A DNA stretch of 64,000 nucleotides from Physcia stellaris (lineage: Eukaryota > Ascomycota > Lecanoromycetes > Caliciales > Physciaceae). A program made the translations under genes and the position numbers. The notes under the pieces are model-generated. The model saw only the letters and a program-made list of their open reading frames with translations, made no database searches and was not told the origin of the DNA. The stretch covers positions 310,001 to 374,000 of the forward strand of contig JABSSW010000031.1 in NCBI GenBank assembly GCA_018902385.1. The letters run 5' to 3'. Of the stretch, positions 12,180-54,576 are shown piece by piece; position 1 is the first letter of the stretch, and every line of letters begins with the position of its first letter.

Positions 12180-12323
12180 TGTAAAATTTCTGAATAGATA
12201 AATCATTGATTGCATGTTGTTCTATGAAATGTTATTTTACATGATTTTTAACATTTAATGTCATTGAAATGCGCATTAATTATTAAGTTTTTGACGATTT
12301 TTGATTGATCATTTAGTTTTACA
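12180..12323 (-). repeat. Left LTR (3' LTR) of copia element D, strongly mutated
   Basis: 144 bp, TG...ACA. Aligned with the right LTR it differs at 18 positions, all transitions and no gaps; in 17 of them this copy carries the T or A. Confidence 0.93.
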
Positions 12324-12828
12324 CATTTTTTAAAAAAAAATATTTGATATTTCGTTTTATTTTTGATGTTTTATTCATTTTTCGATGCGATTCATGATGC
12401 GATTTATTCGATTTTTGATTGATCGAATTCGTCGTTTTTTTTCGATTTTGATATCGAAATAAATTTTAAATCAATCAATTTCACGAATGTTTTTGCTTTT
12501 GAAATGATAAAGTTTTGATGAAATCGTCGATCAAAATGTTCGTTGTAAAAATTCATTGAATGTTGATCGTGTTTTTTTGCATTTTTTGACGAAATCAATG
12601 ACGATGTATATCGACATGACGTAATTTAATGATTAATTTGATCGTTAACATGATAAACGTTCGTATAATTTGACGATTATCGCATTGAATGTGAATGAAT
12701 TTTTTCATGTTCATTTGTATTGATTTAAAAAAACGATTTCATCATATTTTGATGTTGATCGTCATTGACATAATCAACAATTCGATTTCGATGAAATTGA
12801 TGATAATTGTTTTTTGTTTTGTGATTTT

Positions 12829-13221
12829 TCAATCGATAAAATCGTCGAAAAACATGAAACAATATTCATTTGAATTTTGACGAATGTTTAAATCGTTTGC
12901 GAATGACGCATTTGACGAATTTAAAAAAATAATGATTGTATAATTTGTTTGATTTTTGTAAACAATGACGTAATATTTGATGTGTGTCAGATATTTTAAC
13001 GTTCGAATCGTTTGTTTCGCATGATGTTTAAATGAATTCGTAAAATATTCAAATAATAACGAAATTGCAACGATTACATTTGATCGAATTGTTGTTGCAA
13101 CGAAATTGATTGAATCGATTTTCTGTTGATATTTGTGAATTTTCTGTGAAATAATATTATTTTCATTTTTTATCATCGAAATATAATTGATTATAAATAA
13201 TTTTGATTTTTTTTTGTTCAT
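12829..13221 (-). pseudogene. Copia RNase H and C-terminal Pol relic
   Basis: This frame keeps the copia RNase H signature in damaged form: a SINFVATTIRSNV segment, then LKYLTHIKYYVIVY, then NASFANDLNIRQNSNEYCF, corresponding to the family's D-A-S-x-A-D-D...R-x-S-x-x-G-Y core. Catalytic acidic residues are partly replaced by Asn, as G-to-A change predicts. It is the 3' end of the element's coding region, about 500 bp inside the left LTR. Confidence 0.75.
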
Positions 13222-13729
13222 ATTGATATTGAATTTATTAATAAATTTGTCGATATAATTGTTTTGACAAAATAACGTTGTTTGTTGCTTTTTATCGCGT
13301 GTAATACGAATATTGAAAAATCATTCGATTTCGTTCATCTTTTTCATTTCGTAAATTTCGAAAAGTTTTTTTTCGAAAACGTCGATTTGCTTGAAATATT
13401 GAAAATAATACATGATTGTTATATCGTTCACGAAAAAAAATAAAATCATATAATCACACATGAATAAACACTCGATGTTTGATATTTGTTTTAAATTTAA
13501 ATTGTTGAAAATGATCGATAAATGACGATATCATAACGTTAAAAATTGTTTCAATTCATAGAATGTTTTCAATAAAAAAAATAATACATTGTTTGTTTTT
13601 TTTCAATCGTCAAACGATTTGCAATAAATGAATTCGTCGATATCGTTATTTGCGAATGCGTTGATTGCGTTATATTGACGAATATTCAAATCGAAAATTG
13701 TAATTATGATTATTAATGTTCGAAAAATT

Positions 13730-14100
13730 TTAATAATTAATATAATTGCGTAAACATTTTGTTCGATTTATTGAAAATTTTTTCGAACACACAATCGAAT
13801 TTTGTGCTTTATCAAATATTTTTCGTTGTCGAATTTGTATTTGAATATTCATGTGATAAATATAGAAATTTTTTTTGTTTGTTTGACATGATTTCATGAA
13901 ATTTTTTTTCAAATTTGTTTTAATTGTAATGTTTTGATTTTCACGTCAATAATTCGTAAAAAGTCGACGATTTCAAAATGTTTAAACATTTGATAATAAA
14001 AACGTGATTCGACGAAAAAATTGTCACGATGCGATTTTTTTTTTCGTGAATGAAATAATAAATGTTTCATAAAATGAACGCATTTTTTTTGCGAATGCAT
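13730..14100 (-). pseudogene. Copia reverse transcriptase relic
   Basis: Two short overlapping minus frames. The upstream one contains a FLRIIDVKIKTLQ segment that resembles the copia reverse-transcriptase entry (acidic helix before the N-T-W motif). Catalytic YxDD was not found in an open frame; the region is too decayed to delimit the domain. Confidence 0.45.
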
Positions 14101-15868
14101 TTTTTAAAACGATGTAATAATTAAAATTTCGAAACGAATTTGATTTGCGAATGCGAATGAATTTTTCAAATTGAATATTGATTTCGTCAATCGTTGTTTT
14201 CGTTCAATGTTTCGGATTTTTTTCTTTCAACGACGATGCAAACGAGAATAATTTTTTTATTGTTTTTGCAACGACAAATGACGAGAAATTTTCTGTAACG
14301 ACAAATGACGAAAAATACGAAAAATCAAACGTATTTGACGTGTTTTCATTTTTTGACGAAAATGAAACAATTGAAAATAAATATTCTGATTCAAAATCGT
14401 TTTCAATCGTTTGTTTGTGAAATTTCTTTGCATCGCGATCGATAATAAAATTTGTAAATGTTAATTTTCATACATTTTCGTCGTTGTCTGATTCGATGTT
14501 CATTATTTTCGTGAAATCGCTTTGCGATATGTCAAACGTATCGTTAATCAAAAAAAATTCGTTAACGAATTGAATTAAATTTAATTCGTTAAAACGATAA
14601 CGTGAATTTTCGTTGAATGTGACATCACGTGTACGTATAACTTTTCGTTAATTAAAAATTCAAATTAAAAAAATGTTGATGCTGTCATATTTTACGAGAA
14701 AATCGATGTGTGTTTTGATTTTCATCTTTTTCTTTTTCGAAATATTTTTATTCAGAAAGTATGTTTTTGTTTCATATTGAACGATGTGAACAAAATTCGA
14801 TTTTTTGTCGATAATCTTTTCGAACGATGTTTTTCATTCATGTTTTTTGAAAAATGTACGATTTATTATGTAATCAGCGATTTCATTGATTCACGATCAT
14901 AAATAAACAAATAAATTTATTTCGAATTTCATTGTTCGTGATTTGATCAACAATATGTCATTTAATCGTTCGTTGTGTTCGTTTTGTGTTGAAATATCAA
15001 CGATCGAAAATTCAAATGTAATGTTTTTGAATGTGCAATAATTATTTTATTGAATGTTTAACGCACGTTTGTCGTCAAAACGTACAAATATTATTTTATC
15101 GTTGTATTTGATTTCGATGATGTGAATAATTCGAATAAATATTTTCGTAATTTGTTTTTTATTTTCGTGCGTGTATATCATGTGAAAATCGATTTCGAAA
15201 CATGTTACGTGCGATATTTATTTGTGTTTGTTCAAAATCGTTGTCATATCGATGAGATCGTATGTAATACGATAAAACGATTTGTTCGAAATTTTTGATT
15301 TTACAGAAAATTTGAATACAATTCGATGTGTTTTGAAAAATGCACATTTTTCGCATTTGTTAATTAATGACATTTTATTTTTGTTGATGAATTTCATTTT
15401 TTCAATTAGTTTTTGTAAATGTTGTATGACGTCATTATTCGCATGAACGAAAAATTGATATCATTTTAAAATAAATTTTTGTCGCACGATGATTGCGAAA
15501 ATGTTCATTTTTTCAAATTTATTATTTTCGAAAACGTAATGTGTTTTCATTCGTGACACGAAAACGATCGATGTATCGTTTTTGTGCAAATGTTTATAAA
15601 TTGTATCAAAATGCAATTTTTTGTTTGCGAAAATGCTTTTTGCGACGATATTGATCATGAAATTTGATACGTAATTGACGTTTAAAAATTTTATTGATTT
15701 TTTTTTGTGAACGTATCGATGTTAATACGCATTCGATCATATGTCAAAATAAAAAATGATTTCATGTCGAACATAATTTTCGATTCGTTTGTGCAATTTC
15801 GTTTTTTTTTGAAAACGTTGTTTTATCGTGTTGTTAATCACGTGAATGTCGAAATCGTAATTTATAAT

Positions 15869-16495
15869 TCACGACGAACGAAAAAAATAATTTGACGAAA
15901 ACGAATCGTTTGTAAACGACTTTATGACATTGACGTGAATAACGACAAAAAATTTTATTTCGATTTTTTTGTTTTTGTTATTATCGTTTTTTTTCTGACG
16001 TTTTTCGTCAATTCGTTTGATGTTCTGTTTTATTTGTTTTTTTTTTGAATTTTTTTTCGTTTTTTTTATTTTAGTCACGATTTTTGATTTTAATTTGAAA
16101 TCATTTAAACGTATGTTTTCGTTAATATAAAAACAATCGTCGTAAAAATGTTTTTTTTCGCAATAACAAAAATTTCGAAATTGATTTTGATTTCGAAATG
16201 ACGAAATGTCAAAAAAATTTCGATGATTTGTGTGTTCGCATTCGTCAATTGCGAATATCGAATTGAATATCGTTTTTTTTTTCGAATTTTCTTTCATGCG
16301 CATGTGATGACGAAAAATCTCGATAAAAATAAAAAACGTTGTTTCGTAATTCGTTACGATGTTTAATTGAAATAATTGTATTTCAACGAAAATAAATGCG
16401 ATTTTGTCGATTGCGTGTAAAAAATCACGATACGTTCGTTTGTTATCGATAATTTCAACAATTTTCGTTTGTTTAACGAAAATCAACATTTTCAA
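15869..16495 (-). pseudogene. Copia Gag relic with zinc knuckle
   Basis: A 208-residue open stretch with the knuckle C-Y-C-E-K-K-H-F-Y-D-D-C (C-x-C-x4-H-x4-C), the form used by fungal Ty1/copia Gag proteins to bind RNA, followed by a Lys-rich tail. Upstream helices (TYRDFLHAIDKIAF) look like the capsid region. It lies near the right, 5' end of the minus-oriented element, as expected. The N-terminal part of Gag is interrupted between about 16500 and 17000. Confidence 0.7.
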
Positions 16496-17176
16496 ATAAT
16501 CGTTTATTCAGACATCGATGTTTTGACGATTGAATGAATTTTTGATCAAACGATTGTATTTTTGTTTCAATTTCAAATTTTTGATCGAATCGATGAATGC
16601 AAAACGTATTTTGAAAACACGAAAAACGATTTATGAATGAATTTCAACGATTTGAATGAAATTGAAATTTGTAATCGTTATTGTATCGTAAATGTGATCG
16701 ATTATTTTTGTCATGAAATTTTTTTGTTTTTTTCAATTTTGAAATTTTTTTTTGTATTTCGACGACGCGATTTTGTATCGAACATGTTTTTCGTTGAAAT
16801 TCACATTTTGTTGTGCATCAAAATTGAATTTTACGAATTCAAATTTGTTCGTTGATCGAATATTTTTGAATAAATCGATAAAATTTCAAATCGAATATTT
16901 TGTGATTTTGATTCGTACGATCGAAAATCACGCGTTTCAATTTTTGAAAAAATTCAATTTGAATTTTCGTTTCGTATTCGTCATCGTGCTGAACGAACGA
17001 ATAAAAAAAAAAAAAATTGATTGTTGTTGATTGTAAAAAAATGTAAACAAAAAAATGTTTTCGCGATGTTTTGATTTTTCGTGTTAATTTGTCGAAACAA
17101 TCGAATGTTGAAAATATTGATAATCAAATAAATCACGTATTGAATGCAATAATTAAACGTGATTCGAATTCATAAT

Positions 17177-17320
17177 TGTAAAATTTCTGAATAGATAAAT
17201 CATTGATTGCATGTTGTTTTATGAAGTGCTATTTTACATGATTTCTAGCATCTAATGTCATTGGAATGCGCACTAGTTACTAAGCTCTTGGCGATCTCTG
17301 ATTGGTCATCTAGTTCTACA
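17177..17320 (-). repeat. Right LTR (5' LTR) of copia element D, almost unmutated
   Basis: 144 bp, same ends as the left copy. It keeps C or G at 17 of the 18 differing sites, so the mutation zone stops inside or just before this LTR. It is followed by the target duplication TGTTC and then ordinary GC-balanced DNA. Confidence 0.93.
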
Positions 17321-17705: not shown

Positions 17706-20234
17706 CTACCACCTCCCATCGTGCGACCTTCTAATCTCTCGGAACGCCTCCGAGGCAACCTTTATGCCAAGGAGTTCCATAATGGCCTTCTCCTCTTCTC
17801 TCAATCTGAGCTTCTCCTCCTTGCTCATCTCCTCATCCGTTTGAGGCTTCCATAGTTGGGTGTAGTATGCGTCTAAGCTTAAGGACTCAAGGCGAGGAAC
17901 GTCATCCAGCAACTCGCTCTCTTCCTTTCGTAGCTTCTTCTGGGCGTTTCTGGCAAGATCATCCCTCTCCTTGATGCGTTGATTGTATGCTGCTAAGTCG
18001 TCTCCCGTCGTTGCGCCCTCTGTACAGTCGTACAGTATCTCATCGTCGACATTGTCGAACTTAGGTTGCATCTTGTAAACATTAGAGTGTTTCTAAAGGT
18101 TGACGGTGTGCTCACCATGTACCTTTGAGTTCCCGTTCCCAACATCAAATCGCGGGCTATCGGCATCGGACTGCCCGTCAGAGGTTGCTGACACCTCAAT
18201 ATCGGACACCCTGCTCTCCCAGAAGGTTTGCACTGCCCACCACTTCCTCCAGCCCTTCTTTTGAGGGTCATGGTCGTGTTCATGGCTCTTTTGGTATTTT
18301 CGGAGCCCGAGACGGTATTGGTGGACCATGTTTACATCATCCATGATGCCACACCCGGTCATGATTCGGCAGGTGGCGTTGAGGACCTCCGGCGGCACGA
18401 CGGTGTCCTCGAAGAGTATTTTAGTATCCAGGATACCGTTGTAAATGAAGGAGTCCTTTGTTGGCGTCCGCTTCACCGACTGCTTGGGATCTTCTGGCTT
18501 GGTCGGTTCTTCCAGTTGCTGGGGCTCTTCCAGCACTTTCGACACATCAGCTCCGACATCGTCGTCAGTATGCTCCGCCTCGTCATCGGTGACTTTTGTC
18601 CGCTTGTGCGGCTTCTCAGGAACATTCTGCGCGTTCACATCGTCATCATTCCAGACGGTAGGCTCCTCGCGCTTCCGCTTCTTCGATTCTGCCTCTGCTG
18701 TGCCGCCAACTGGAATGGCGTGTGCAGACTTCTGAGGTTTCTTGCCCTTCAACGACGCCTTTGGCCGGACAACAGTTGCTTGCTGCGGGGTTTCTAAATC
18801 CGTATCAGCAACAGAAGCATCACTGGTTACAGCGCTCTTGCGATTCTTACCATTGCCAGGGGCATTTGAGGTATCGATATCTGTACCCTCCGGCTCAGAC
18901 TCTGCTTCCGGATCAACCATCTTGGGATCCACGTTAGCAGCGCTCTGGAGGCTCTTGCTCTTCAGGGATGCTTGTGGTTGGCGTACATCTGACTTCGGCG
19001 TACCAATCAGACCATCAACATCGGGTGCGCCTAGTGTAGGGCCGTCCAGATCATGGCCATCGTCCATGTCTTGATCAGGACTACCACGGTTCTCAAGGTC
19101 GGCTGCCTCTTGAACCGGAGGACCCGAGAGCTGACCCACAGTTTCGGGGCCAGCATCCTTGGTCTTCTGCCGCTTCATCGATATAGGCTTCTCGTGTTCA
19201 TCATCTGCGTCGTTGCTATCCTCGGTCCTCCGACGCTTCTTACTATCCCCGGCCTTGATGGCTGCCACCAAGTCTTCGTTCGAGGGGGCAGGAGTAGGCG
19301 AAGAGCTCCCACGACGGTTCTGGCCAGCCCCAGAAGCAGGACTTGTCGACTGTGCTCCGTGCTCCGCAGGACTCGAGGACGAAGAAACCTCCCCAGAGTC
19401 ACCACTAGAAGCCTTGAATGCCATTTCAGCCTCCAAGACACGTGCCACCATTTTCGGCTTATTGGTGCCCTTTGCCGACTCATTCGGATTGAGCGCAGCA
19501 TTTAATCGGGTAAGCAGCACCTTGAGCGCTGGCATCTTAGTATTCACGAGCTCATAGGCTCGATTCTGGAGAGTGGTGTTGGTGCCATCCAGGTCAAACC
19601 CAATGTGGTACAGGAGCAGCCTCGCCGTTTTGATCTGGCGGTTTCCACGCTTGTCCAGGTTACGGTCGTCCAGAGCTTCGTGTAGGCTCTCCACGCTCGT
19701 CATGTTGCGGTTCGTAAGGTCTGAGAACTTGATGCTGCCAATGTAGCTCTCGTCATCTTGAGGGTCCGTGGCATTGGGTCCCGCCTCAGGTTGAACGGGA
19801 CCGATGGAGGCTTCCGAGTCTTCAGGGCTGGAGGACTTGGGTGTTGCGTCAGGTCGGATAGGAGTGCTGGACATAGCTGCCTCCCGAGGAGTGGGTGCTT
19901 TGGCTACCTTCTTAGGCTTCATGGCAACGTTCGGCGTGGAAGACTCTTCAGGGTTTGAAGCCTTAGGTGCAGCCTTCTTTGATTTGGCTACAATGGTGGG
20001 CTTGGTTTGCTCCGTGGGAGTGGGCGGCGTTGGTCCTTCCTGGGTCTTAGGGGTATTGACTGGGGTGAACTTTGAGCCTTCCATTACGTTGTAGCACGAG
20101 TTCCTTGCTACTTGTTCTTTAGAACGGACGAGCTTGATGTTCTGGGGAAGGTAGATAGGTTCTCGAAGATGGATGGTATCAAGATTCTTGACCTTGATAG
20201 TCCTTGGCGAAGTCTTGCTTGATCGATGGAACAT
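17706..20234 (-). CDS. Low-complexity, probably nuclear protein of unknown function
   Basis: Two exons (20234-18123 and 18071-17706; 51-nt intron with GTACAT donor) give 825 residues. Three regions stand out: a Pro/Thr/Ser/Lys-rich N-terminal third; a conserved-looking block at about 165-255 beginning IGSIKFSDLTNRN with a helical RLLLYHIGFDLDG segment; and a C-terminal block starting DSFIYNGILDTKILFED with a Trp-rich GWRKWWAVQTFWESR motif, followed by an acidic coiled-coil-like end (EEMSKEEKLRLREEEK). Basic clusters KKRRR and KKRKREE look like nuclear localisation signals. Long acidic and Ser-rich linkers separate these blocks. I recognise no named domain. Met51 is an alternative start. The promoter side faces the tandem duplication at 20569-20802. 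Confidence 0.75.
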
Positions 20235-20568
20235 ATGTTGCTAAAGGATTTGATGGTTGGTTAAAAGTTGATCTTAGGAGTCTGTTTTGGAGTACTTGAA
20301 GGTTTGAAGATTTTGAGAGTCAAATCCTGATATCCGAGTATTTTGCAGAAGAAGTCTCCAAAGCCCAGCAGGCGCTATTTATCCACCCCACTGATTAAGT
20401 CTTACTCGCACTCGCACTAGCTGCACGTCTTCGTGACACACGTCTGTCAAGCGTGACGCCCACCCCCATTGTGGACACAATGCGATCTCCAACACAAGGC
20501 CTTTGTCCAGACTGAGGGTGATGAGTGTTGCTTGACCTCTTTCTGGCTTTGTCCATCCAAATACATGC

Positions 20569-20802
20569 TTCCGATTGGGTAAAAACAATGACACACCCCC
20601 AGGACAAGACACAGACAATGGAAGATGATGATGAAAATGAGTATCCTCGCGCCTGCGTGTGGAGGTGGACTAGGCGCGCTAGATCTCCGATCGGATAAGG
20701 ACAATGACAATGACACCTCTGGGACAGGACACAGACAATAGAGAATGACGATGAAGATGAGTGTCGCCGCACCTGCGTGTGGAGGTGGACTTAGTCGCGC
20801 TA
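20569..20802. repeat. Two-copy imperfect tandem duplication, unit about 117 bp
   Basis: The block beginning TCCGATTGGGTA near 20570 and ending in the CGCGCTAG word at about 20680 is repeated from about 20686 (TCCGATCGGATA) to 20802. Shared words include GGACA(A/G)GACACAGACAAT and CCTGCGTGTGGAGGTGGACT. The copies differ by many substitutions and small indels and carry no open frame common to both. Confidence 0.65.
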
Positions 20803-22605
20803 GGTTCATCACTCATCACCCTTCCACGGGAATAGGGATTGTGATAGCGTCTTCGTTTTGCCAAAACGTTCGGACTGTGTGTGTTAAAATCCTTCGGGAA
20901 GGGGGTTGGAGGTAATCATCTTCTCTTCACTATAGTGTTGCTTGACTATATTGATGACATTGTGTCCGTTGCCGATGAGCTCTGGAGTGTCGTTAGCTTC
21001 CAAAAACGACTTCAAAGGTGAGTCATATCTTACGATATTAGGAATCCCGGCTCGCAGCGACATGCTCAGGACTTCGGCCAGGCTCATTCTCTTCTTTCAA
21101 AGATTTTTATTTCTACTACGCTTCTCGTTTCTTCGCATGACAGTACTATATGTATATACAGGACAATTGTAGTAACGATACACAGTATATAAGTGGGAAT
21201 CTAGCCCTTCTCTATCTCCGAACTTTCAGGGAGTATAGAGGCTTCTAAATAGCTTTCAGTCAGCGGTTTGCTTCTGCCGATGTCTTTGGGTCTCTATAAC
21301 AACCGGTAAAGCAAACACCTATAACAATCAGTTCAAAAAACACCACAATTTGATCACCAAGGTTATTGAAGTCTTCCTTTGTGATATGTGCGTAATTTGT
21401 TCTTTGACTGCTATGGTTCTGTCAACTAAGCCCAAACTTCATAATGTACGAGAACGAATCGCAGGTGCGAAGTATTCCAGGGTTACTTTTACCGCTACTG
21501 GTTTTCCCCTTCTCTTGCTTCCATTCCATATTTCAAGAGTGTGAACGATGAATAAAGTGGATTTTTGAAGGCACCATGGGGTTTCTACACTTTATTCAAA
21601 GAGAAACAAACAAAGAGTCGTGCGAGAAAGAAGTGGTTTACCATCATTACGCTCAAGTGTGAAGGAGACCGATGAACTCAGCTTCATCGTGGCTTATAAT
21701 GCAAAACGACCAGTTCCAGGACATGACGCTGTCAAATGACGGGAGCTTTGCTCTTCCCATCTTCCAACCAGCACGAAGATTAGCCAGCCGACGTCTCATA
21801 TTGATCAGGCCATTCCGGGGAGCCGTCGACATCAATACCATCTTATTTTGCTTGGATACCCGTGCTTAGGATGCTGGTCTTCTAATCTGCAGTCTCCCCC
21901 AATTTGTTGCTAAAATCACAGTTTGAGAATGGGCGGTCTCATGATGAATAATACTATGATACCACAGGCCAGCTACAGCAGATGAATTGTTGCGGTGATG
22001 GTGGTTGTTACTATGTGACGTCGGTCATAATGTTTGGAATGTAGTACAGCCCCGCCATGTCAGTATCTGGAAGACCCGACCTGCAGAGTAGACTGTACGT
22101 CTTCGGCGAACTAGTGTCAAGCTATAAACCCAAGGCTTTGAGCATCCAGAGCCTACCACCAATCAGATGACGAGACAGCGCCTACATGCGTCGGAGAAAA
22201 GACGGCACGGGAATTGCATCCTGCGTTAAGAGTCGCAGCGAAACTGAAACCCTGGACATGCTGAGCTCCTGAGCTTCTTTGTACCCGTGCTGGACAATCT
22301 TTCTTGGTAGCAGACAGCTGAGCGGGTTTGTGCGTCTATGATAAAGGGTGCCTTCCCTGCACTCGAAGAGTCCCTTATAATCTGTTCCTTTTCTACCTAT
22401 GTCTGCGCTCGGACACCGACATATCATGATGTTGACAGCCGTAAAACTGACCTGTAAGTGGCTTAGCACACGAAAAGCGTAGGTCCAGGATGCGACCAAG
22501 ATCCTGGATATCCCGACACCAGGCATCGGGGGAATGGCGGACTAGCGTGGCTTCTCGTTACAAGTAGCAGTGGAAATTAGAATTGTTTGCCATTGATGCC
22601 GTGCT

Positions 22606-22667
22606 GGCGAACTAGCGTGCTTCTTGTTGCAAAGCAGCTGGAGAAGCACATGAAATGCAGCCAATCA
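22606..22667 (-). repeat. Short dispersed repeat copy b (about 62 bp)
   Basis: Minus-strand copy: reads TGATTGGCTGC at one end and ACGCTAGTTCGCCAGC at the other. A shorter related piece with GGACTAGCGTGG lies 65 bp to the left at about 22538. Confidence 0.6.
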
Positions 22668-39700: not shown

Positions 39701-39790
39701 ATATCAATCGATTTCGAATTTTTTTGATTTTTTGATTCGTATCAATATTTTGTCGTTTTCATGAAAAATTTTTTTTTTTATTTTCGCATT

Positions 39791-41806: not shown

Positions 41807-41992
41807 ATTGATTTGTTAATAATCATTAATTAAATCAATTTTGTTAAAACTTTTCGTTGTTTCGATTATGTTTAAACAATTTTGAATTTTCGACAATGCA
41901 TAATCGTTTTTTTGCGTCATCGCGTTGAAAATTTTATAATTTATATATATACGTCAAAAGTCATTTTTTTTGACAAAAAAAATTGACGTTTT

Positions 41993-42890: not shown

Positions 42891-43201
42891 TGTAAAACAC
42901 TCAGAATTCAAATCAACAGAAAGCACTGCGAATCGAATTTCGATAAAATTATATCAAACAATTCGATCATCGAAGTTCGATAGATTATGAAGACGATCAG
43001 TCTGATCACGTCAGCATCAAATTTTCGATTGAACTCAACAAACTCATACTTTCGAATAGATTTCGAAATGTGTGTACGATTGAACAAATTGATTGATTAT
43101 ATAAACAGAAGTTTGTAAAATAGTTAGTTTTGCAATTATTAATTTAGTCATACAATCGTCTCTGTTATACATCTTTGATGTCACATCTTTTGAATTTTAC
43201 A
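42891..43201 (+). repeat. Left (5') LTR of Gypsy B
   Basis: 311 bp. Compared with the right LTR: 27 transitions, one 2-bp gap, no transversions. A TATATAAA box survives at 43098-43105, placing the promoter in the LTR. Confidence 0.92.
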
Positions 43202-43250
43202 TTCTAATAATTATCATAACTCATAGATTAGCATCACTCGTGTATACAGC

Positions 43251-44335
43251 ATGTCTACATTCTTCATTAGTATGAATATTCTCACGAATCTTGAAGATGA
43301 ATTCATTTTGAATTCATCAAAGTCAAATGTCATCATGAAGAAGTATCGAGCATACATTCAACAACAACATGTTCGAATGAAAACATTACAAAATGCATCT
43401 ACATTTACATTCTCAGTCGCTCAGACTTCTGTCATTAGAGAGAAATCGTTCTATATCAAAGTAATGAACGACAAATCAAAACTATTCTCTGAAAACAATT
43501 ATAAAGAATGAATTCAATACGTCTGAAAAATGAAAAATCAATTCGACATGAATCAAATGAACGATTACGTCAAAAATTTTGACAAAATCAAGCTCTTCTT
43601 TGCTGTCATCTTTCTAAAGAGAAAATTTATTGCACAATTATTATGAAATGTCAAAATCAAAAACAACTCAAAAAAAAACTATATTTGAAAAAAGTATGTC
43701 GACTTTCTCAAAAAAAACATCAAAGAAGTTTTCATTAGAAAGAAGAATAACTTCGAAAAATATAGAAATTACAAACAAAAAGTCAATCAATCAATAAAAA
43801 ACTACGATGCACATCGCATCGCTCTGTTTTCGAATTTACATTCAATTATGAAGTTTTCATCAACAATAGAACTACAGAATTTCGTATTGAATCTAATTCA
43901 AAATAATCAGAACTTTCTGATCGAACAAAAAATTGAAAACGATAAAAACGTGATTCTGAAGCGTTTCAAACAACGAGAAAATTTTCAACGCAAAAAGCAA
44001 CGCAACGTCAATCAGAATAAATTTGATGACGATTTTAACAAACGCAAAAAAAACGAGAATAACTTCGATGAGAACGGAAAAAACAATCGTCGATTTAACA
44101 AAAATCGACGAAAAAATCGAAAGAACGATAAAAAATTCAAATTTGACAATCTTAATCGCGAGACAATCAAATTCAAAAAACTATGACGTTGAATCAAAAT
44201 TGAATACAAAAATATCGTGAATAACAATAGATGCATCGATTGCGATAAATCGGAATGCAATATTAAAAAATGTAAAAATATCAAATCGAATATCGTTTTT
44301 TTCGAGAAAATTTTTCCAAATTCTAAATCAAAAAA
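43251..44335 (+). pseudogene. Gypsy B Gag relic
   Basis: The first Met lies 50 bp after the LTR. The frame continues with interruptions, all TGA, through a capsid-like region (FDKIKLFFAVIFLKRKFI), a basic Lys/Asn-rich stretch and the knuckle CIDCDKSECNIKKC near 44230-44275. Several interruptions lie where Gag proteins carry Trp. Confidence 0.75.
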
Positions 44336-44344
44336 ATAATCGAT

Positions 44345-47300
44345 TTGATAATTTTCAATCAAGCTGATACGAAAAAAAACTCAATAACAGATGATCGCAT
44401 CGATTCAAACTCGAACGAATTCAATACGTTCATTATCGAAATCAAGAGCGCAAAACGTCGTTTTAAAAAATTTCGCACGATCAAATGCAAGAAAACAAAA
44501 ATCAAAATAAATAGAACATTTGACGAGAAAAATAAACTGAAATTCGAAATCGTTATGAATTCAGAAACAAAAATCAATTTAATAAATCAGAAGTTTGCTA
44601 AACGACTCGAATTAAAATCATTCAACGTATCGAATTGCGAAACAATGATCATAGAAAACAACTCACTCAAAAACTATGAAATCTACTTTGTACAATTCGA
44701 AATACAAAACGAAAACGACGTGAGTCGTTTTTTTAACGATAACTTTCTAGAAACGAATTTAGATTGAGACATGACTTTAGATTTACTCTGAATACAATTA
44801 TTTGAAATCGACGTGAATTGAAATATCGACAAGATCAAATCATGATCGATGATTGTAGAATCATTTTTTTTCATCACGAGTCGTATCGAGAAAATCGAAT
44901 CAGAAAAACTAATCAACGCAGTTTTCAATGAAGAAAAACATGTTTTCGTCATGTTCGTACAAATGATTTTTGACGAGATAAAATATTTGAATGACGTACA
45001 CATCGAACGACGATCACAAATCGACTTTGCTCTCGCGAAAATGAAAGAAAAAAATATCAAGAGTTTTTTATCTGAAATTTTGAAAGAATTCGTTGACATG
45101 ACAAATGAGAACAAAGCATACGAACTATTTGATCATGAATTCGACGATCACGCAATAGATTTAGAATCAGACAAAAAATCATCGTATGAATTCATTTACG
45201 CATTGTTCGAAAACGAACTCAAGATTTTGCGAGCATATCTGAATAAACATTTGAAAAACGAATTTATTCGACTTTTCATTTTCTTTGCGAGCGCTTCGAT
45301 TTTGTTCGTTAAAAAAAAGAACGAAATTTTACGATTGTGCGTAGATTACAAAAATCTTAATCTTTTAACGATCAAAAATAGATATTTTTTATCATTAATC
45401 GATGAAAGTTTGAATCGTTTAAACAAAGTTCGCAAATATACAAGTTTTGACATGATAACGATTTACAATCGATTGCGTATTAAAAAAGAAAACGAATGAA
45501 AAACAACGTTCAAAACACGATACGAGCATTTTGAGTATATCGTTATGTTTTTCGATTTCACTAATGTATTTGCAACGTTTCAGAGTTTCGTCAACAAAAT
45601 TCTGATCGAGCGACTAAATTTGTCGATCATTGTTTATCTGAACGATATAATTATCTATTTCAAAAACGAAACACAGCACGTCGAGAACGTCAAATGAGTA
45701 TTAAATCGTTTAAAAGAGCACAAACTTTTTCTTAACATGAAAAAATGTAAATTTTTTAAAAATAGTATCGAATTTTTGAATTTTATCGTTTCATTGAAAG
45801 AGATGCAAATGCAACAAAACAAAATCGAAACTATACAAAACTGATTTGCATCTAGAAACGTGTTCGAAATTTTCGAGTTTTTCGATTTGTGCAATTTCTA
45901 TAAACGATTTATCAAAAACTTCAATAAGTTGACATTATTCTTGATTTTCATGCTAAAAAAATCAGCAGAATTTCACAAAAAGAAAACTAAAAAAAAGCGA
46001 AATCGAAATAAAAATCACAATAGAAAACGATTATCGAACGAGTTTTTGATTTTCGAAGTTTTCGAATCATTCAAACGACTACGCAAAACGTTTATGAAAA
46101 TTTCTGTTTTGCAACATTTCGACTCGACTAAATTCATTCGTGTGAAGATCGACGTCTCGAATAAAACAATAGAAAAAATACTCTGTCAATCAAACGACAA
46201 AAATCATTGACATTCGATAGTTTACTTTTCAAGAAAAATGATACTCGCGAAATGTAACTATGAAATTCACGACAAAAAATTTCTGATCATAATTTTCGCA
46301 TTCAAACATTGACGTCATTATTTGAAAAAAACGAGACATCAAATTCTCGTTTTGACGAATCATCGAAATCTCAATCGTTTCATGACTACAACGAAATTAT
46401 CATTTCGACAAATACGATGAGCACAAAAACTATCACGTTACAATTTTGTCATCGATTATCGTTTCGACAGCAAAAATTTTGCGAACGATTTGTCAAAACG
46501 ATTTGATCACATGACGATCACAAAAATAAAATTGAAAACAATCGTCAGATTTTGACGCGTTTGCGACAGTTTTTACAAACAAACTCGAACGAGTTTTCGA
46601 TTTATGTGAGCGAAATTAAAATTACGATGCTCGAACTCAATGAAAATGAAGTATTCGCGTGCGAACTTCTTGAAAAAAATGAAAAAAACAATTTTTCGAA
46701 TGATTTTTTTCTCGTTCTAGATACATCAAACGTGATTATCAACGAGTGAAAGACATTAGTATTGAATAATGCAACGATTTTCGAATCGATCGATGAAATG
46801 ATTGCGCGAAAACATATTCATGAACATGATGCAACATACGACGATAACATCATTGACAATTTTGTCGAGTTGATTCGTTCATTGCTAAAAAAAAATTCTT
46901 GTGCGATTCAAATAAGACAGAAATTAATTACTTCTGAAAAATCACACTCGTCTTGAATAGACGAGAAAAAAATATTATGACATAAAAATTGTTTGTACGT
47001 TTCATCGAATTTGAAAAAAAATGTCATAAAATCAAATCACAACAATTTTTTCGCAAATCACTTCGATGTAAAACGCATCTTAAAATTAATACGAAAAAAA
47101 TATTATTGATCGAATCAAAATAAAGTCGTTGACGTCGAACACGATTCAAACATGCGTGCACAAATAAAAAAATATTGCGAAACATGTGCAATCTGCAAAA
47201 AAAGCAAAACATCTCGTCACAAATTATATGAAAAACTATCATTTTTTTTTATATCGAAATTCAAATGAACTGACATTACAATGAATTTCGTGACAAATCT

Positions 47301-48480
47301 ATTTGAAAACAGAACATGAAACGAAACAACGTATAATGCAATACTCGTTGTCGTAAATCGTTTGACGAAAATGACACACTACATTTCGATCAAAAAAACA
47401 ATGATCGCAAAAAATCTCGTCGAAATATTGATTCGAAAAATCATTAGACTTCATGATTTTTTCTTTTCGATAACAACAAACAAAAGCTCGATCTTTATTT
47501 CAAAATATCACGACGTTTTGTGCTACGTTTTAAAAATCAAATTTAAACTATCAACGATTTATTATTCGCAAACAGATGATCAGACGAAGCGTCAAAATTC
47601 AATCATGAAATAGTATTTCAAAATTTTCGTCAATTTTCAACAGAATAACTGAGTAAAACTATTGTCGATGACTGAGTTTGTTTACAACAATAGTAGACAT
47701 GCGTTCACGCAAATGTCGTTTTTTGAAACAATGCAAAAATATATTTCGAGAATGTCATTCGAAAAATCTGCAAATTTCAAAATTAAGTCAAAATCTGCAA
47801 AAAAACATGTCGAAAAACTGATCGAACTGATGAGAATATTAAAAATCAATTTAGCACAGACACAGAAACAACAAATCAAATACAAAAATGCAAAGACAAA
47901 AATAAAAAATTTCGACGTAGAAAATTACGTCAACGTCAATGACAAGAACATTCGCATCAAACGCAACAAAAAACTCGAATGAAAATTTTTCGATTCATTC
48001 AAAGTATTCAAAACAATAGAGAATCAAGCATATCAACTCGAAATATTCAAGCGTTGACGAATTCATGACGTTTTTCACGTCTCGTTGCTGAAAAAAGTCA
48101 AATCTAAAAAAGAAGAGAAAGTTTCGCTAAAACTCACGTATCAATCGAATATCGAAAATGACGAAGAACTCACGAACGAAAAATTCTGAATTGAAATCAT
48201 TTTGGACAGCAAAATCTATAAAAAAAATCAAATTTCGAATAAATCATACAATGAATCAGAGCTCTATTATTTGATTCAATGAAAAAATTACGAAAAACGT
48301 ATTTGAAAATCAATTGCAGTGATTAAACATCTAAAAAATATGTTTCGCGAATTTCACATGAATAATTCGAAAAAAAACGATGCAAACAAAATCATCAATC
48401 GTCGACGCGTTCGACGTCAAATAGATGTAATTTTCACGATGAAATCGTTGACAAAAAAATTCAATTTTTACATGTAATTC
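44345..48480 (+). pseudogene. Gypsy B Pol relic: protease, RT, RNase H, integrase, chromodomain
   Basis: In a frame different from Gag. Protease at about 44550-44770 (NLINQKFAKRLEL after the lost Asp-Ser-Gly); RT at 45330-45780 with LRLCVDYKNLNLLTIKNRY, KYTSFDMITIYNRLRI and VYLNDIIIYF (YLDD to YLND); connection NFYKRFIKNF; RNase H about 46100-46520. A frame change is needed between about 46500 and 46550. Integrase follows: zinc region ending CETCAICKKSK (47170-47215), core from NAILVVVNRLTKMTHYI to TIYYSQTDDQTKRQNSIMK, then C-terminal chromodomain (ILDSKIYKK...YYLIQ-stop-KNYEKR, about 48190-48320). Stops occur as TGA, several at positions where Trp is conserved. Confidence 0.85.
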
Positions 48481-49102
48481 AATGCTATTTACTGTTTAGA
48501 ATTTACGACGCATGAAAAGCTGAATCGTGTCAAAAACATCTTCAAAAACTGTTGTTCGATCTGATTGAACGACGAATAAAATATGAGATGAAAAAGAAAA
48601 TCAAAAAAATTTTCGAAGTTTGATATATCGAATGCGATCGCGACAACGACGTCTTTCGCGTCTAGATTTTTCATGAATTCGATATACGAAAAAAAAAAAC
48701 AAAAAGATAAAAAATGATTCGAATTCAAAACTCATTGCCAATCAATTAATTGTCAGTCATCAGATCGAGAGTTGTGAATTGTACGAAATCAAATTCTCGA
48801 TTCTGAAAACAGCAGATAGTGAAGTCATCAAATCATGTTTTTTTTGAGTCATTCAAAAAAATGTATTTTCAGATTTTTAACGCAGATTGACTAGAAATCG
48901 AAATGAAAAATATTCAAATGCGAAAATCACGATGACAATGATTTTTCAATTCAACGATTTCAGATGCGAAAATCGCGATTACAGCGATTCTTCAAATTTC
49001 AAAAAAAAAACATATTTACACAAGTTTAACGAATCTCTATTGCGAAGCATGTCAAAGAATGTTGATCATTTCAAGAAATTTCGATGTTAAAAAGAAAACG
49101 CA

Positions 49103-49411
49103 TGTAAAACACTCAAAATTCAAATCAACAAAGCATTGCGAATCGAATTTCGATAAAATTATATCAAGCAATTCGATCATCGAAATTCGATAAATCATGA
49201 AAACGATCAATTTGATCACGTCAGCATCAAATTTTCGATTGAACTCAACAAACTCATACTTTCGAATAAATTTCGAAATGTGTGTACGATTGAACAGATT
49301 GACTGACTATATAAGCAAAAGTTTGTAAAATAATTAATTTTGCAATTATTAGTCTAGTTATACAATCGTCTCTGCTATACATTTCTGATGTCACATTTCT
49401 TGAGTCTTACA
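49103..49411 (+). repeat. Right (3') LTR of Gypsy B
   Basis: 309 bp, preceded by a purine-rich tract (about 49089-49099) as expected for a polypurine primer. TATATAAG at 49308-49315. Confidence 0.92.
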
Positions 49412-49601
49412 CGTTTTTATATTTGACATTTTCGAAATCGTGATTGTGATAAACGAAATTTGTTCATTTTCAATTATCGAATCGTTTTTTTGTCGATTTT
49501 AAACGATTCATCGCGATTATCGTGCATTTTATGCGACGACGATTTCAAACGTTTTTCGAATTTTTGCTTTTGTCACGATTTTTATCGTTTCGACGAAATC
49601 G

Positions 49602-49859
49602 TCAATTTGACGAATCATTTTCAAACACGATGAAATTCGAACAAATTGAAAACAAATAATTCGTTTGATTACAATTGTAACATTTTTTCGCGAAAACATT
49701 CATAACGTTTAAATTTTTTTGTTGTTTATTGTTTTGAACGACAAAAATTTGTGTTGATTGATTCGTTGTTAAAATTGTTCGAAAAACACGAAAAACATAT
49801 TTTTTTGCATTGACATTTTCGTGTTTCGAAACATTCGTCATCATGTTGTGCAAATTCAT
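49602..49859 (-). pseudogene. Gypsy A Gag zinc-knuckle relic
   Basis: Minus frame with CYNCNQTNYLFSIC, i.e. C-x2-C-x4-Y-x4-C where the His of the CCHC knuckle has become Tyr. The H-to-Y change is C-to-T on the coding strand. It lies right of element B, showing that B landed between gag and pol of A. Confidence 0.75.
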
Positions 49860-50297
49860 GTTCGATTACATTTGATTTTGATTGAAAATGTAATTTCGAA
49901 TATCGATTTTGAATTCGTCACGATATTTTTTTTTGATCGCAAATTCAATAACGTGTTCGCGAATGTTTTCGTATATCGACGTAAATTTGTTATTGTAATC
50001 GACGATTTTGTTGTATGCGTCAAATTGAATGATTTCGTTGTATATTTTGAAAAATTTTTGTTGTCAATCGTGTTCGTTTCAACGAATGAAAAAATATTTT
50101 TTGAATTCGAATCATTTGTCATCAAATTTTTGTAAATAAACAAACAAAAAAATAAATCATTCGACGATTTTGTTTTCGAAATATTGCTCGATAACGATGA
50201 AAACGTTAATTTTGTTGATTAAATATGAATTGAACACATGAAATTTTTCGTGTTTGAATAAAAAATTTTTGATTTTAACATGATTACGTTCACGTTT

Positions 50298-50714
50298 TTA
50301 AAAAATTGAAAAACGACGATCGATAATTTGATTATCGAAAATAATTTGCGTTTCAATTTGCGCGTCAAACAAAATAAAATCAAACAAATAATTATCGTCG
50401 TTAAAATCAACGATGTTCGCAAAAAATTGATTGTGATTCATAAACAAATTGTTTCGTGATGTACGTTCACGATCGCGACGAAATTGATCATTTAATTGAA
50501 CGACGATATCATTTTCGACGACGACATTATTTTCGACAAAATCGACGTTTTTTTCGTTCGAATTTTCGACGAATTCGTCAACGATTTCATCGAATTGATT
50601 GTCGAATTTTGTTGCAATGTTCGCAAAATTGAAAAAATCGAAAACAATCGTACGTTGTGAAAAATCATTTGAACGATCACGACGACGTTTTAAATTATCA
50701 TTTTGAATAAACAT
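50298..50714 (-). pseudogene. Gypsy A Gag N-terminal relic
   Basis: A 138-residue minus frame starting 140 bp inside the right LTR, with the acidic/Asn-rich stretch expected of a mutated Gag leader. Position rather than motif supports the call. Confidence 0.5.
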
Positions 50715-50851
50715 GATGATTAATGAATAAAGAATTTTAGAAATTTTAAATTTTCAAATGATTATCAAATGCAACGAAAACAATTTGAATTGACAAAAAA
50801 CAATGAACACAATCAAATACATTGTAAATGTAAAAAAGATGATGTTATCAA

Positions 50852-50886
50852 TATAAAAATTCAAAATTAATAAAATTAATATGAAA
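50852..50886 (-). repeat. Right (5') LTR of Gypsy A, first 35 bp
   Basis: Aligns with 37351-37385; the TG end has become TA. Element C is inserted after the TGAAA at 50882-50886. Confidence 0.88.
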
Positions 50887-51096
50887 TGTTGAAATACAAT
50901 TTTCGCAAATGTTCTTCGCGAATGCTGCAATCAGAATTCAGTTAATATAATTTGACGAAAGAAAAACTAATGCGTTCTTGTTGAAATTAGTGTTTTGACA
51001 CTCGCACACTTCTTGTGCTTTGTCACTTCATGTATGTTACAAAAAATAACGAGATTCAAAGCAATAGAATGATAGTCATTCATGATTCTTTCAATA
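50887..51096 (+). repeat. Left LTR of element C
   Basis: 210 bp; differs from the right copy by 10 transitions and one 2-bp gap. Confidence 0.87.
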
Positions 51097-51377
51097 GATT
51101 ATGAGAATCGAATTAACAGTTTTCGCTACATCTAATATCAATTACAGTATGTCAGAAAACGAAACGCAATAATAACTAGTCGTTAGACAATACAGCAAAT
51201 TTGCAATACTAACAGCAATAATCAACTCAATGAAATATTCAGTCAAATCAGATCAGAACGACACAATTGCAATCGAGCAATATTCAATATCTCAGTACAT
51301 TCTCAATTACATCGATAACATCTATCTAATCATCTTGCGAATTTCTCACGAATTCGCCTATCTATCACTCAGTCAGA

Positions 51378-52811
51378 TTGACGACTTCAACATCTACATT
51401 CGACCTGACGAGCATGTCATTTTCATCAGAATTATCAACTTTCTCGATTCTTGTATCAGAAATTGTACGCGAACGTTCAGAGAGCGTATCATCGAAATCG
51501 AAATCTGCTCAACAATCTGTTGAGCATGTGATTTCATTTTCTAGTTCGATTGTTTCATCGTCTCAATCGGTAATTTTCTCATCTTCGTCATCAGAACTCT
51601 CGCTTCTCTCGATTCGTGCACCAGAAATCGTATGCAAGCATTCAGAGAGTGCACTCTTTTCTATTTCTACTTTTGCGAAGTTCACAATCTCTGCGAGCTT
51701 CGCATTTCTCGCTTTCGAATCGTCGCTCGATATTCTTCTTTGATCATCTCTTCTATGCATCTGCCTCGACGCAAATGATCCGAGAACGCAAAATCTTCGA
51801 ATTCTATATCACGAGCACACGAACTCATGTCTTACTAATGTTTCGAAATGTAATTGATTCACTCAAACCAAGAGAGCACAAGAAAATTATCATTTGCGAA
51901 AGCACGAGCAGACAATGAAAAGCAAAATGAAACAAGAAGCGAAAAAATTGTTGAAACAACAGAAAAAAATCCGTTTGATCAAGAAACGAGCAAAAAACTA
52001 TACGTGCAAACGTTGCAAGCATTCGATCAAATTCGATAGCAACATCAAATTGCACGAGCATATTCGTACTCGACATGCAAAGAAGTCGAAAACAATCTCA
52101 CTCTCTGCGCAAATCTCAGAATCGAAATCTATTTCATCTGTTTCGTCGTCTGTATCGATAATCTTCTCATCGTTCACGTCATCGAAATTGATAATCGAGT
52201 CACTAGCTACATCTTCTTCAGAATTCTCACCAGAATTCTTGTCGATTGAAACATCAAAGAAATCGATATCTTGAGCAGAAATCGTCTCACGATCGATCGT
52301 TGCACTCAAACTTTTTCGTTTTTCGATTGCGACACTCAAATCGATGTGCAAATTCATGAAGAAATCAGCAGTCATTTGCTCGCTTACTTCATCGTCTACT
52401 TCGTCTCGAACGTCTACATCATCGAGATTTTATTTTATCGTGAACGATCTGTTTCACATGTTCGCTGAAAAGCCGAGTCCATTTGATCTGCAGCGACATC
52501 GAATGAGCTCGATTTCTTCGAAAAACTCTGACAAATGCAATCGCGACAACAATTCCAAAAGCAAATGTGATCTCATACAAAGTCGCATTACGTCATACTT
52601 TTATGCGACGATCTCATTTGCTTTCAAAACGATCAAATTCGAAACATTTTCAACAGTGCATTCATCGATCAAACAGTCGATTCGCATATCATCTTCGCGA
52701 ATCTTTCGATTTTCTTCTTCGATGCGCTCTTATTTCTCGACATTTTCTCGTTCTTCTCTCGTTTGCAGACATTGTCAAAGGCGTTCTGTCATCTATCGAT
52801 CTATCGATTGA
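51378..52811 (+). pseudogene. Element C protein relic: Ser-rich, C2H2 finger, MNDLxxMF-like motif
   Basis: One frame with interruptions runs across this span. It opens with long Ser runs (consistent with Pro CCN codons mutated to TCN), then a basic region and a finger CKRCKHSIKFDSNIKLHEHI ending in a second His a few residues on (about 52005-52080), then more Ser, then YFIVNDLFHMFAEKPSPFDL and QSRITSYFYAT, and ends with a Cys pair CRHC. I recall this finger plus the NDL-x-x-MF block from repetitive fungal proteins usually annotated only as C2H2 proteins; a Gag-like, nucleic-acid-binding role is inference. The frame lacks a clear intact start and is interrupted near 51740-51890 and 52270. Confidence 0.6.
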
Positions 52812-54215
52812 ATCATGCCAAATGTCTCCAGAGTTGAGAACAATGAAATATTCATGAAAATGCGCTATTGGCGTTTCGTTTCTCTTCATTTTGCTTTGAG
52901 AGAGTATTGACTTCTCCTTGAGAAAGTCACTACTTTGAAAAAGTTAGAGCATGTTGTTTGTTTGTTTGTTTGTCGTCTTTTTTCTTTTCAGTTAATCGTT
53001 GATCGACTATGATCTGAGAAAACATAAAAGTTGTTGTTGTTTTAATGAATTCGATGTTTCGTCTCTCTCGTTCAATTTTCGATCTGAGAAAGCTTTACAA
53101 GTTGTTGTATGCTTTGTTTATTTGTTTATTGTTTAACGAATATGATAGAAACTTATCTTTGTTGTGACTTCGTCTTGATCTAACACGACTAATGATCGTC
53201 TCTTTTTCTACTACTTTTGAGACTTAGTCGCCCGATAAATACGAGAGAAAAAGAGTGACAATAGCTTCAAAAAAACGTACTGTACGTACAATTGTTAGAA
53301 GAGAAGAAACAAACTAAATAGTACGACTTCGAAAAAGCGTACTATACAATCTCGTATGACAAGAAATCAAATCAGTACAGCTTCGAAAAAGCGTACTGTA
53401 CAAACATGACTAAAAATCACATAATATCGTTTCGAGAAAACGTACTACGAGTCATTACATCTCGATCTTGCAAAGCAGAAACTCGATCAAAAAAACAAAA
53501 ACTCGATCAAGAATTGAAGATATCTGATCTTTTCGCATACTAATCGACCTGATTCTCTGACAGATCTTAGTCAGATCAGAAAAGCTCGAATCTGCACTCT
53601 TTGCATCGATGCACGCTTTTCATATCGATTTCTCGATCGTCTTCAGCTTTGCACATCGCATTGACATATCTTATGAACTTTCTACAATCAAATCGCATAG
53701 ATATCGATTCATTGATGTCGCAAGAAGTATCTGAGAACTCTGAAATTCACAATGATGCTACATGATGTGATTTGCATTCTCGTTCGCCATCGCAGAACTC
53801 AAACATAGAATATTTGCTCAATGATGTATCTTTCACTCAATTCTAGATATCAGATCCCACATCGATGTCTCATCTCATGGAGAAATCCAAAACGTCTTCA
53901 GTCACTCGATCGCAATTCTTACAAATCGACTCTACGTCATATTTGAAATCAATAGATCATCGAATCTCGATTCGTTCGTTTCTGCAATCTTCGCATCGAT
54001 GTATGATCTAGCTCTACAAAATCTACGTCATTGAGAAAGCTTGCTCGAAAGTTTCAAGCAACACATCGTTGAGAAAACTCTAAAATGCGCATCGCTGAGA
54101 AAACTACATCGTTGAAAAAGTTTCAGAACTCATCGCTCGAAGAGCTTGCACGAAAGTTTCAGATTGAACTCGTTAAAATACAGAACAAAAGACACAAGCG
54201 ATTGCTGTGAAAGAG

Positions 54216-54423
54216 TGTTGAAATACAGTCTTCGCAAATGTTCTTCGCGAATGCTGCAATCAGAATTCAGTTAATATAATTTGACGAAAGAAGAACTAAT
54301 GCGTTCTTGTTGAAACTAATGTCTTGACACTCGCACACTTCTTGTGCTGTCACTCCATGTATGTTACAAGAAATAACGAGATTCAGAGCAATAGAATGAT
54401 AGTCATCCATGATTCTTTCAATA
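54216..54423 (+). repeat. Right LTR of element C
   Basis: 208 bp, preceded by GTGAAAGAG as a possible polypurine tract. Confidence 0.87.
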
Positions 54424-54428
54424 TGAAA

Positions 54429-54576
54429 AATCGTTTGATTTTATATAATAAATTAATCGCAAAAAGCGCATAATTGATTTTGACAAAATTCAAAATCAAA
54501 ATTAAATTTTGAATTTTAGACGAATATATCGTTTCGATTGTCGAAAAGTTTTCTGTCAAGCAATTTGATCATTACA
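54429..54576 (-). repeat. Right (5') LTR of Gypsy A, remaining 148 bp
   Basis: Resumes after element C and its target copy TGAAA (54424-54428) and runs to ATTACA, then TATG. The two pieces together equal the 183 bp of the left LTR, confirming that C inserted here. Confidence 0.9.

Follow-up and report, generated by a model that had tools for sequence, protein, structure and literature searches.

C-to-T mutation of repeats at CpY, with CpA nearly spared, in Physcia stellaris

In Neurospora crassa and most ascomycetes, RIP changes C to T on both strands of repeats, spares single-copy DNA and leaves large AT-rich blocks in genomes that carry RID- and DIM-2-type genes. The target there is CpA, and TpA/ApT rises; a 2025 survey of fungal genomes describes CpA preference as a feature that RIP-like defences share (PMC12543289). 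CpT-biased RIP has nevertheless been reported in Botrytis, Sclerotinia and Magnaporthe (PMC4352252), in Colletotrichum truncatum (PMC6180176) and in Anisogramma (PMC10998396), with many transposon CpT sites changed to TpT. This change has been called a dominant form among RIP-capable fungi (PMC7882544), has been observed in Neurospora Tad1 (PMC2621366), and is associated in three species with a motif of the RID protein (PMC4352252). Microbotryum and other basidiomycetes also depart from CpA, their target being CpG (PMC4352252). Among lichens, AT-rich mutated transposons are reported from Endocarpon pusillum, with standard indices and a TpA/ApT of 1.47 (PMC3897900), and from Cladonia rangiformis, which also has homologues of both RID and DIM-2 and shows a GC peak of ~16% (PMC12542154); the main text of the latter report gives no dinucleotide context. 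In the MIP of Ascobolus, repeats are methylated without being mutated.

The repeats of the lichen-forming ascomycete Physcia stellaris share with Neurospora all of the general features listed above, but they retain nearly all CpA, and their TpA/ApT is lowered. They share the conversion of CpT to TpT with the CpT-biased systems, unlike which (as described in PMC4352252 and PMC10998396) they lack substantial CpA change alongside; the CpT-labelled families of C. truncatum, with TpA/ApT of 1.6-1.7 (PMC6180176), differ as well. The mutated transposons of E. pusillum are AT-rich as here but follow the standard indices, and CpG, the basidiomycete target, is among the least changed contexts in Physcia. 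Sequence change in the Physcia repeats is plain, and MIP alone would therefore be insufficient. The preliminary description of this locus knew of no standard account of so strong a CpT bias. CpT bias in RIP is already known from the reports cited above, and the difference here is that CpA is spared: the literature searched, which was mostly open-access, yielded no description of CpY loss with CpA spared.

The window analyzed is a 64-kb stretch of contig JABSSW010000031.1 (positions 310,001 to 374,000) that holds several mutated elements. Element D (12180-17320) is AT-rich, with a GC content of ~0.26 and LTRs at 12180-12323 and 17177-17320; its segment 12400-14400 has 45 genomic matches, self included. 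A second AT-rich block (37377-54577) has at its two ends the direct repeats that belong to element A (37377-37534 and 54420-54577), and its segment 38500-40500 has 26 genomic matches, again counting itself. Inside this block are element C (42891-49416, plus strand; LTRs 42891-43203 and 49103-49416), whose LTR finds at least 40 matches in the genome, 29 of these copies being compared, and element B (50887-54423), which is only partly mutated. A 6.7-kb run from 37360 to 44076 contains neither CC nor GG; where the window is genic, runs of this kind reach 132 bases at most. The genic stretch 18300-36900, used as a control, has an ordinary CpN composition.

Paired LTRs of elements C, A, D and B give direct evidence of the mutation spectrum. 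Within strict bounds (those given above for C, A and D, and 50887-51096/54216-54423 for B), 66 transitions and no transversions separate the pairs, and the changes are C:G to T:A on both strands, as expected of RIP in the broad sense. By context, 5/5 CpC, 58/90 CpT, 3/119 CpA and 0/58 CpG sites are changed (CpY versus CpR, Fisher p ~1e-33), so that neither CpA, the preferred target of classic RIP, nor CpG, the context lost when methylated CpG decays, is favored. Looser LTR ends were discarded: most of the 25 transversions and 22 gapped columns that they brought in came from alignment overrunning the repeats. An earlier tally by eye of 71 transitions and no transversions (61 CpT, 6 CpC, 4 CpA and 0 CpG) differs from the present one in its bounds and had no denominators; the observation is confirmed, and in stronger form. 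These counts bear on the idea that a methyltransferase of the maintenance or de novo type methylates CpY, which is then lost by long-term spontaneous deamination, in the absence of any RIP-like hypermutation. Slow decay of this kind would be expected to show the same context and the same restriction to repeats, and older copies do carry transversions as well (618 transitions to 140 transversions, and 287 to 76, in the copy comparisons of elements D and A). The LTR pairs speak against it: with 66 transitions and no transversions, CpY change must be far faster than ordinary substitution. Element B, in which CpC has almost vanished while CpT is almost undiminished (O/E 0.11 and 0.95, respectively, over 50875-54600), is a second point against slow decay, which we regard as improbable.

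Copies from across the genome extend this picture. All four element families are concordant in the mutated context, and CpA, which would have been the main context had the preliminary reading been wrong, does not take that place in the LTR of element C (29 copies), in B (6), in D (5) or in A (4 + 2). The 29 LTR copies of element C differ by 7710 transitions and 428 transversions summed over all pairs; 12 of their 40 CpA columns vary, and 290/21392 CpG comparisons are changed. In elements D and A, 213/2418 and 131/1192 CpA comparisons, respectively, are changed. CpA is a slow minor target, and CpG change is about equal to it or less. The same alignments address the proposal that the elements were poor in CpT and CpC from the start. 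Against it, copies of a single element carry either C or T at CpT and CpC sites, and some public relatives have normal Pro and Gly. Since CpT sites vary between copies of the same element, their loss is mutation, and ancestral composition, already named as a possible refutation in the preliminary description, is rejected for CpT; overall its probability is negligible.

The preliminary description spoke of a CpT preference. The near sparing of CpA and CpG stands; what has to be amended is that CpC is a direct target too. Its plus-strand count at 12361-12600 is reproduced exactly, the 25 C comprising 15 CpG, 9 CpA and 1 CpT. Inside the AT-rich blocks CpC is depleted more fully than CpT: across 39 windows with GC <0.25 (19.5 kb from the 64-kb window and genome samples), CC and GG together number 0 against 504 expected from composition. 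A target restricted to CpT is ruled out, with CCA, CCG, CCC and CCT all at 0 in windows with GC <0.25 and CCR changing to TCR. In 48 CCR site comparisons, which set five copies against one and are not independent, the first C is T in 36, 33 being CCA to TCA or CCG to TCG, and the second C alone is T in none. Since CCR becomes TCR, CpC itself is attacked, and the mutation target in repeats is CpY. Another 10 of the 48 comparisons read CCA to CAA or CCA to CGA, which is unexplained and may reflect alignment. A simulation that starts from genic DNA and runs forward matches four partly mutated stretches when CpC is lost 2-8 times faster than CpT, and equal rates are disfavored, on the premise that the elements started with genic composition; stretches L037 and L039, with no CC remaining, lie outside the fit. 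Because CpC is lost faster than CpT, few CpC sites remained to differ between LTRs, and mainly CpT was seen at first reading.

The base preceding the target shows no comparable effect. CpT is changed at 94/135 sites after A, 8/10 after C, 83/125 after G and 227/343 after T, a range of 0.66-0.70 after A, G and T that amounts to no clear 5' effect, and in the same four of five copies (L037 omitted) no clear effect of the base following CpT was seen. It is the 3' neighbor of C that decides mutation. Strand clustering, which RIP should produce within a single copy, is weak, with runs below expectation in 5/5 comparisons (p 0.03-0.15). AID/APOBEC-like and bacterial-type DNA deaminases read the 5' neighbor. 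A deaminase of either type acting on repeats would account for dense C-to-T change on both strands, yet with the 3' base decisive and no 5' target setter in evidence, such an origin is highly improbable.

The mutated DNA is confined to repeats. Among 20 systematic 10-kb samples, taken from contigs C3, C5 and C6, three are wholly AT-rich with the signature of CpY loss and 17 lack any window with GC <0.35. AT-rich DNA is repeated and genic DNA is not (AT1 is repeated in the genome-wide search only), and the CpY/CpR index has a median of 0.05 in 50 low-GC 1-kb windows versus 1.02 in 209 high-GC windows. In the repeats sampled, C is changed to T on both strands at CpY but seldom at CpA or CpG, and no such change affects single-copy genic DNA. 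RIP indices, whose calculation on the AT-rich blocks had been suggested with the first reading, show CpT and CpC depleted and TpA/ApT not raised: the latter is 0.42-0.48 in sample windows with GC 0.20-0.30 versus 0.71 at GC 0.45-0.50. With the classic thresholds (TpA/ApT >0.89 and (CpA+TpG)/(ApC+GpT) <1.03), published indices flag 0 of the 50 low-GC windows.

The coding consequences follow the same pattern. Stops are formed mainly as TGA (127/144). The reverse-transcriptase-like frame of element C (44846-45499, plus strand) is stop-free over 217 aa, has no Pro and no Gly, and ends at a TGA where intact relatives have Trp; RIP-like mutation can thus leave long open frames. This frame has no Pfam match of its own at E 0.01 and takes its name from homologues (P0122 and others), six frames of the AT-rich block gave no Pfam match above the cut-off and one below it, and a viral_contigs search with P0170 found no relative. 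Public protein homologues likewise lack Pro and Gly, and the nearest is 84% identical; their share of 77/97 among public relatives is no population estimate because candidates were picked by words shared with the Pro/Gly-free query. Normal Pro and Gly, at 4% or more, are found in 18/97. For other species the evidence comes from proteins only, and it is probable that a number of the Pro/Gly-free "proteins" deposited in public databases are mutated transposons. These homologues also bear on a possible artefact, in which modified C would be called T in repeats. The assembly was made with Canu on Nanopore reads and polished with Racon and two Illumina Pilon rounds (PMC7513301), and polishing may fail in repeats. 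Against this, the total absence of CpC over 19.5 kb would demand near-complete miscalling, partly mutated copies coexist, and Pro/Gly-free homologues are present among proteins from other sources; miscalling is accordingly very unlikely.

Candidate enzymes are present. The preliminary description advised a search for RID and DIM-2 homologues, and two RID-type (class I) genes, RID-A on contig C6 and RID-B on C5, and one DIM-2-type gene on C3 were found. The three DNMT1-family loci all have open frames, and the PF00145 profile gave no fourth locus in the genome. Two of the three genes have relatives in other lichens. In a methyltransferase tree of 50 hand-chosen rows, built by a quick method and with several long branches, the fork at which RID-A joins Aspergillus and Penicillium is open, and the tree does not indicate the acting enzyme. 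Abundant apothecia are described in P. stellaris (PMC7513301), and the species is therefore sexual. From the observed pattern we infer timing and enzyme, and with good confidence favor RIP by a DNMT1-family enzyme of altered specificity. Repeats in the sexual fungus would undergo C-to-T change on both strands at CpY, CpC being converted faster than CpT and CpA slowly, as a minor target. The converting enzyme would likeliest be of the RID/Masc1 type (class I), RID-A first: by judgement, RID-A has somewhat below an even chance, the DIM-2-type enzyme a rather low one and RID-B one slightly lower still. Points against this reading are the weak strand clustering, the CpA changes that do occur, the transversions in old copies and a sample drawn from contigs C3, C5 and C6. 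The earlier suggestion of a mutator with different specificity fits the three genes insofar as a methyltransferase variant is meant, but no gene has been tied to the pattern.

It is also conceivable, if unlikely, that a DIM-2-type enzyme drawn to H3K9me3 heterochromatin converts CpY, the RID genes at most initiating the process. The DIM-2-type frame is intact over 1118 aa and scores 630 bits against the Neurospora DIM2 of known structure, Neurospora DIM-2 prefers CpT according to a 2026 review (PMC13297926), and older repeats in Neurospora are reported to lose RIP only in the double knockout (PMC11969663). On the other hand, Zymoseptoria Dim2 is described as promoting CpA change (PMC8016269), the DIM2 structure paper leaves context preference open (PMC11315935), and the present sequence data do not separate the candidate enzymes.

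Physcia stellaris is a clear exception to the shared CpA preference, being nearly its opposite and close to saturation, and index-based RIP screens have a blind spot for mutation of the CpY type. The determinant of context in RID- or DIM-2-type enzymes becomes testable, given three candidate genes and lichen relatives of two. We hold with moderate confidence that in a fungal lineage including Physcia, and hinted at in other genomes, the RIP enzyme has changed its target from CpA to CpY, with transposons losing Pro and Gly codons and turning Trp into TGA in place of stops from CpA-containing codons, and that this was overlooked because surveys score TpA gain. That switch, if real, would amount to naturally occurring variation in the specificity of a DNMT1-family mutator.

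The target of the mutation is a C before a pyrimidine (CpY), and CpC is lost first. The preliminary description had proposed a CpT preference from transitions seen without transversions in four LTR pairs. Strict LTR pairs indeed differ by 66 transitions and 0 transversions, the looser ends having been dropped together with their 25 transversions and 22 gapped columns, which lie mostly beyond the repeat ends, and the base count given for 12361-12600 is exact on recount. CpT change is strong (58 of 90 sites), as claimed, but CpT alone gives an incomplete target. CpC changed at 5/5 sites, CpA at 3/119, and CpG at 0/58; few CpC remained to differ between LTRs because CpC mutates ahead of CpT.

Wider copy comparisons give the same order. 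Among 29 copies of the LTR of element C (42891-49416), out of 40 matches listed, ordered comparisons found change at 162/168 CpC, 5912/8200 CpT, 1319/28534 CpA, and 290/21392 CpG, and C/T variation occupies 4/4 CpC, 52/53 CpT, 12/40 CpA, and 1/27 CpG columns. Element B (50887-54423) still has a CpT observed/expected ratio of 0.95 and a CpC ratio of 0.11. In its copy comparisons, 48 CCR cases (R, purine), which are not independent since five copies share sites, comprised 18 CCA to TCA, 15 CCG to TCG, and three further cases of T at the first C, besides one without change and 11 of other kinds. T at the second C only was never seen; thus, a C before C is attacked even when the C that follows it is itself protected. 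At CCA sites, CAA or CGA appeared in 10 of the 48 comparisons, as transversions or misalignment at shared sites. In a forward simulation started from genic DNA, CpC mutating 2-8 times faster fits four partly mutated stretches. Neither the 5′ base nor the base following CpT had a clear effect on change.

Base composition shows the endpoint. In the 39 windows with GC below 0.25 (19.5 kb, from the window and samples), observed counts against those expected from composition were 0 versus 504 for CC+GG, 113 versus 1712 for CT+AG, 2213 versus 1713 for CA+TG, and 1048 versus 252 for CG, and 27.5 kb at GC 0.25-0.30 retains 23 CC+GG. CCA and CCG are gone together with CCC and CCT. Across the 20 sampled stretches, CpC, CpT, CpA, and CpG make up 5.29, 6.77, 6.78, and 4.98% of dinucleotides at GC 0.45-0.50 and 0.00, 0.30, 5.62, and 5.51% at GC 0.20-0.25.

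Both CpA and CpG lie far behind CpY; in most sets, CpA changes more than CpG. One element B pair changed at 132/210 CpT, 8/259 CpA, and 9/234 CpG, and CpA change reaches 37/253 in the most mutated copy. With four extra copies each, family D changed at 7/7 CpC, 286/363 CpT, 213/2418 CpA, and 110/2120 CpG, and family A at 2/2, 110/120, 131/1192, and 44/1725, respectively; a further saturated family A pair gave CpA 25/261 and CpG 3/220. In saturated copies of both families (L061-L068), residual C-to-T change falls more on CpA than CpG, as a slow second target or background. Strand clustering is weak (runs below expectation in 5/5 comparisons, p 0.03-0.15).

The affected DNA is repetitive. Counting the query itself, a piece of D matches the genome at 45 places, one of A at 26, and one of B at 102. 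Within sampled DNA, 92% of L023, 43% of L027, 63% of L028, 41% of AT2, and 6% of AT1 (the last two AT-rich stretches) is matched elsewhere, as is 0-4% of seven genic stretches. The final CC/GG lies 17 bases ahead of A's left repeat (37377-37534) and 152 bases ahead of D (12180-17320). Right edges are less informative because CC/GG occur within less mutated 3′ copies (17263, 17290, and 17304 in D; 54355 and 54407). GC and AT skews have opposite signs in D and C (12180-17320 and 43000-49000). Outside the AT-rich blocks, a 111-base direct repeat (55420-55530 and 56420-56530) is 84% alike at a spacing of exactly 1000 bases.

The signature, RIP-like with nearly inverted specificity, is real and strong in the window (G000:C31:310001-374000) and in 3 of 20 systematic 10-kb stretches, drawn from contigs C3, C5, and C6 only; all 60 of 400 500-bp windows with GC below 0.35 fall within L023, L027, and L028. 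The published assembly has 46.57 Mb, 184 scaffolds, and 43.32% GC, and the accessible main text of that paper does not contain the term RIP (PMC7513301). Given one compartment near 49% GC and another near 25%, the published 43.3% suggests that the signature may extend to roughly a quarter of the genome.

The timing of RIP and the acting enzyme we infer. A PF00145 profile search of 147 contigs (43,974,083 bases) gave four matches at three loci. RID-A (C6, L013, G000:C6:789500-794500) is class I, with a 403 aa exon and further exon sequence bearing the GNAVPP motif; it matches 27 proteins at 60-94% identity and at least 91% coverage, including one from Heterodermia at 72%. The DIM-2-type gene (C3) has a frame of 1118 aa scoring 630 bits against solved DIM2. 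RID-B (C5), also class I, has a frame of 816 aa (annotation, 932 aa) with 99% identity to Physcia stellaris G7Y79_00005g016670 over 95% of the query. A quick tree places RID-A and RID-B apart, so they are hardly a recent duplication; the RID-A clade (Physcia, Heterodermia, and relatives) has a long stem (1.14). In the window, an SNF2 domain (PF00176) matches in two minus-strand pieces (24566-25024 and 25066-25683), the second interrupted by three stops within the matched part, perhaps introns.

CpT change in RIP is already known, judging from the accessible parts of several papers: it is reported together with CpA (PMC4352252; PMC10998396), in Neurospora Tad1 by the RIPCAL authors (PMC2621366), and as a dominant form, CpT to TpT, in RIP-capable fungi (PMC7882544), and elsewhere a CpT signature is, unlike here, accompanied by TpA/ApT of 1.6-1.7 (PMC6180176). 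A 2025 survey nevertheless concludes, in its accessible part, on CpA (PMC12543289), and Endocarpon, also a lichen former, has the usual RIP indices (PMC3897900). No description of CpY loss that leaves CpA nearly intact turned up in our literature search.

None of the 50 AT-rich 1-kb windows would be called RIP-affected under the published index rules; among 209 genic windows, the two-index rule picks out 3. Since CpA/CpG codons, for example CAA, CAG, and CGA, retain their C, stops arise mainly from TGG via opposite-strand CpC. With a reverse-transcriptase fragment from a relative as query, the best 60 of 158 matches hold 127 TGA, 15 TAA, and 2 TAG, 13 of these matches having no stop. Stop-free frames of at least 90 aa in the AT-rich blocks (8,352 residues) contain 0.1% Pro and 0.1% Gly, and that of element C (44846-45499, plus strand) ends at a TGA where relatives carry Trp. 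Among 97 public homologues of this frame, from a search that favours Pro/Gly-poor sequences, 77 have Pro+Gly below 1.5%, in nine clusters at 60% identity (35, 31, 5, and six singles). Of the 821 positions with Pro in normal relatives, 0% (rounded) still hold Pro in these sequences and 736 hold Ser, Phe, or Leu; Gly is retained at 1% of 503. Cys is kept at 76/89 and His at 217/318, Gln at only 81/196 and Met at only 73/189. At least 45 of the 77 share the query's type of final triplet, directly before Trp. Such sequences hint that CpY mutation is present in further genomes, and "hypothetical proteins" with long Pro/Gly-free frames, many stopping before a conserved Trp, are probably mutated retrotransposons.
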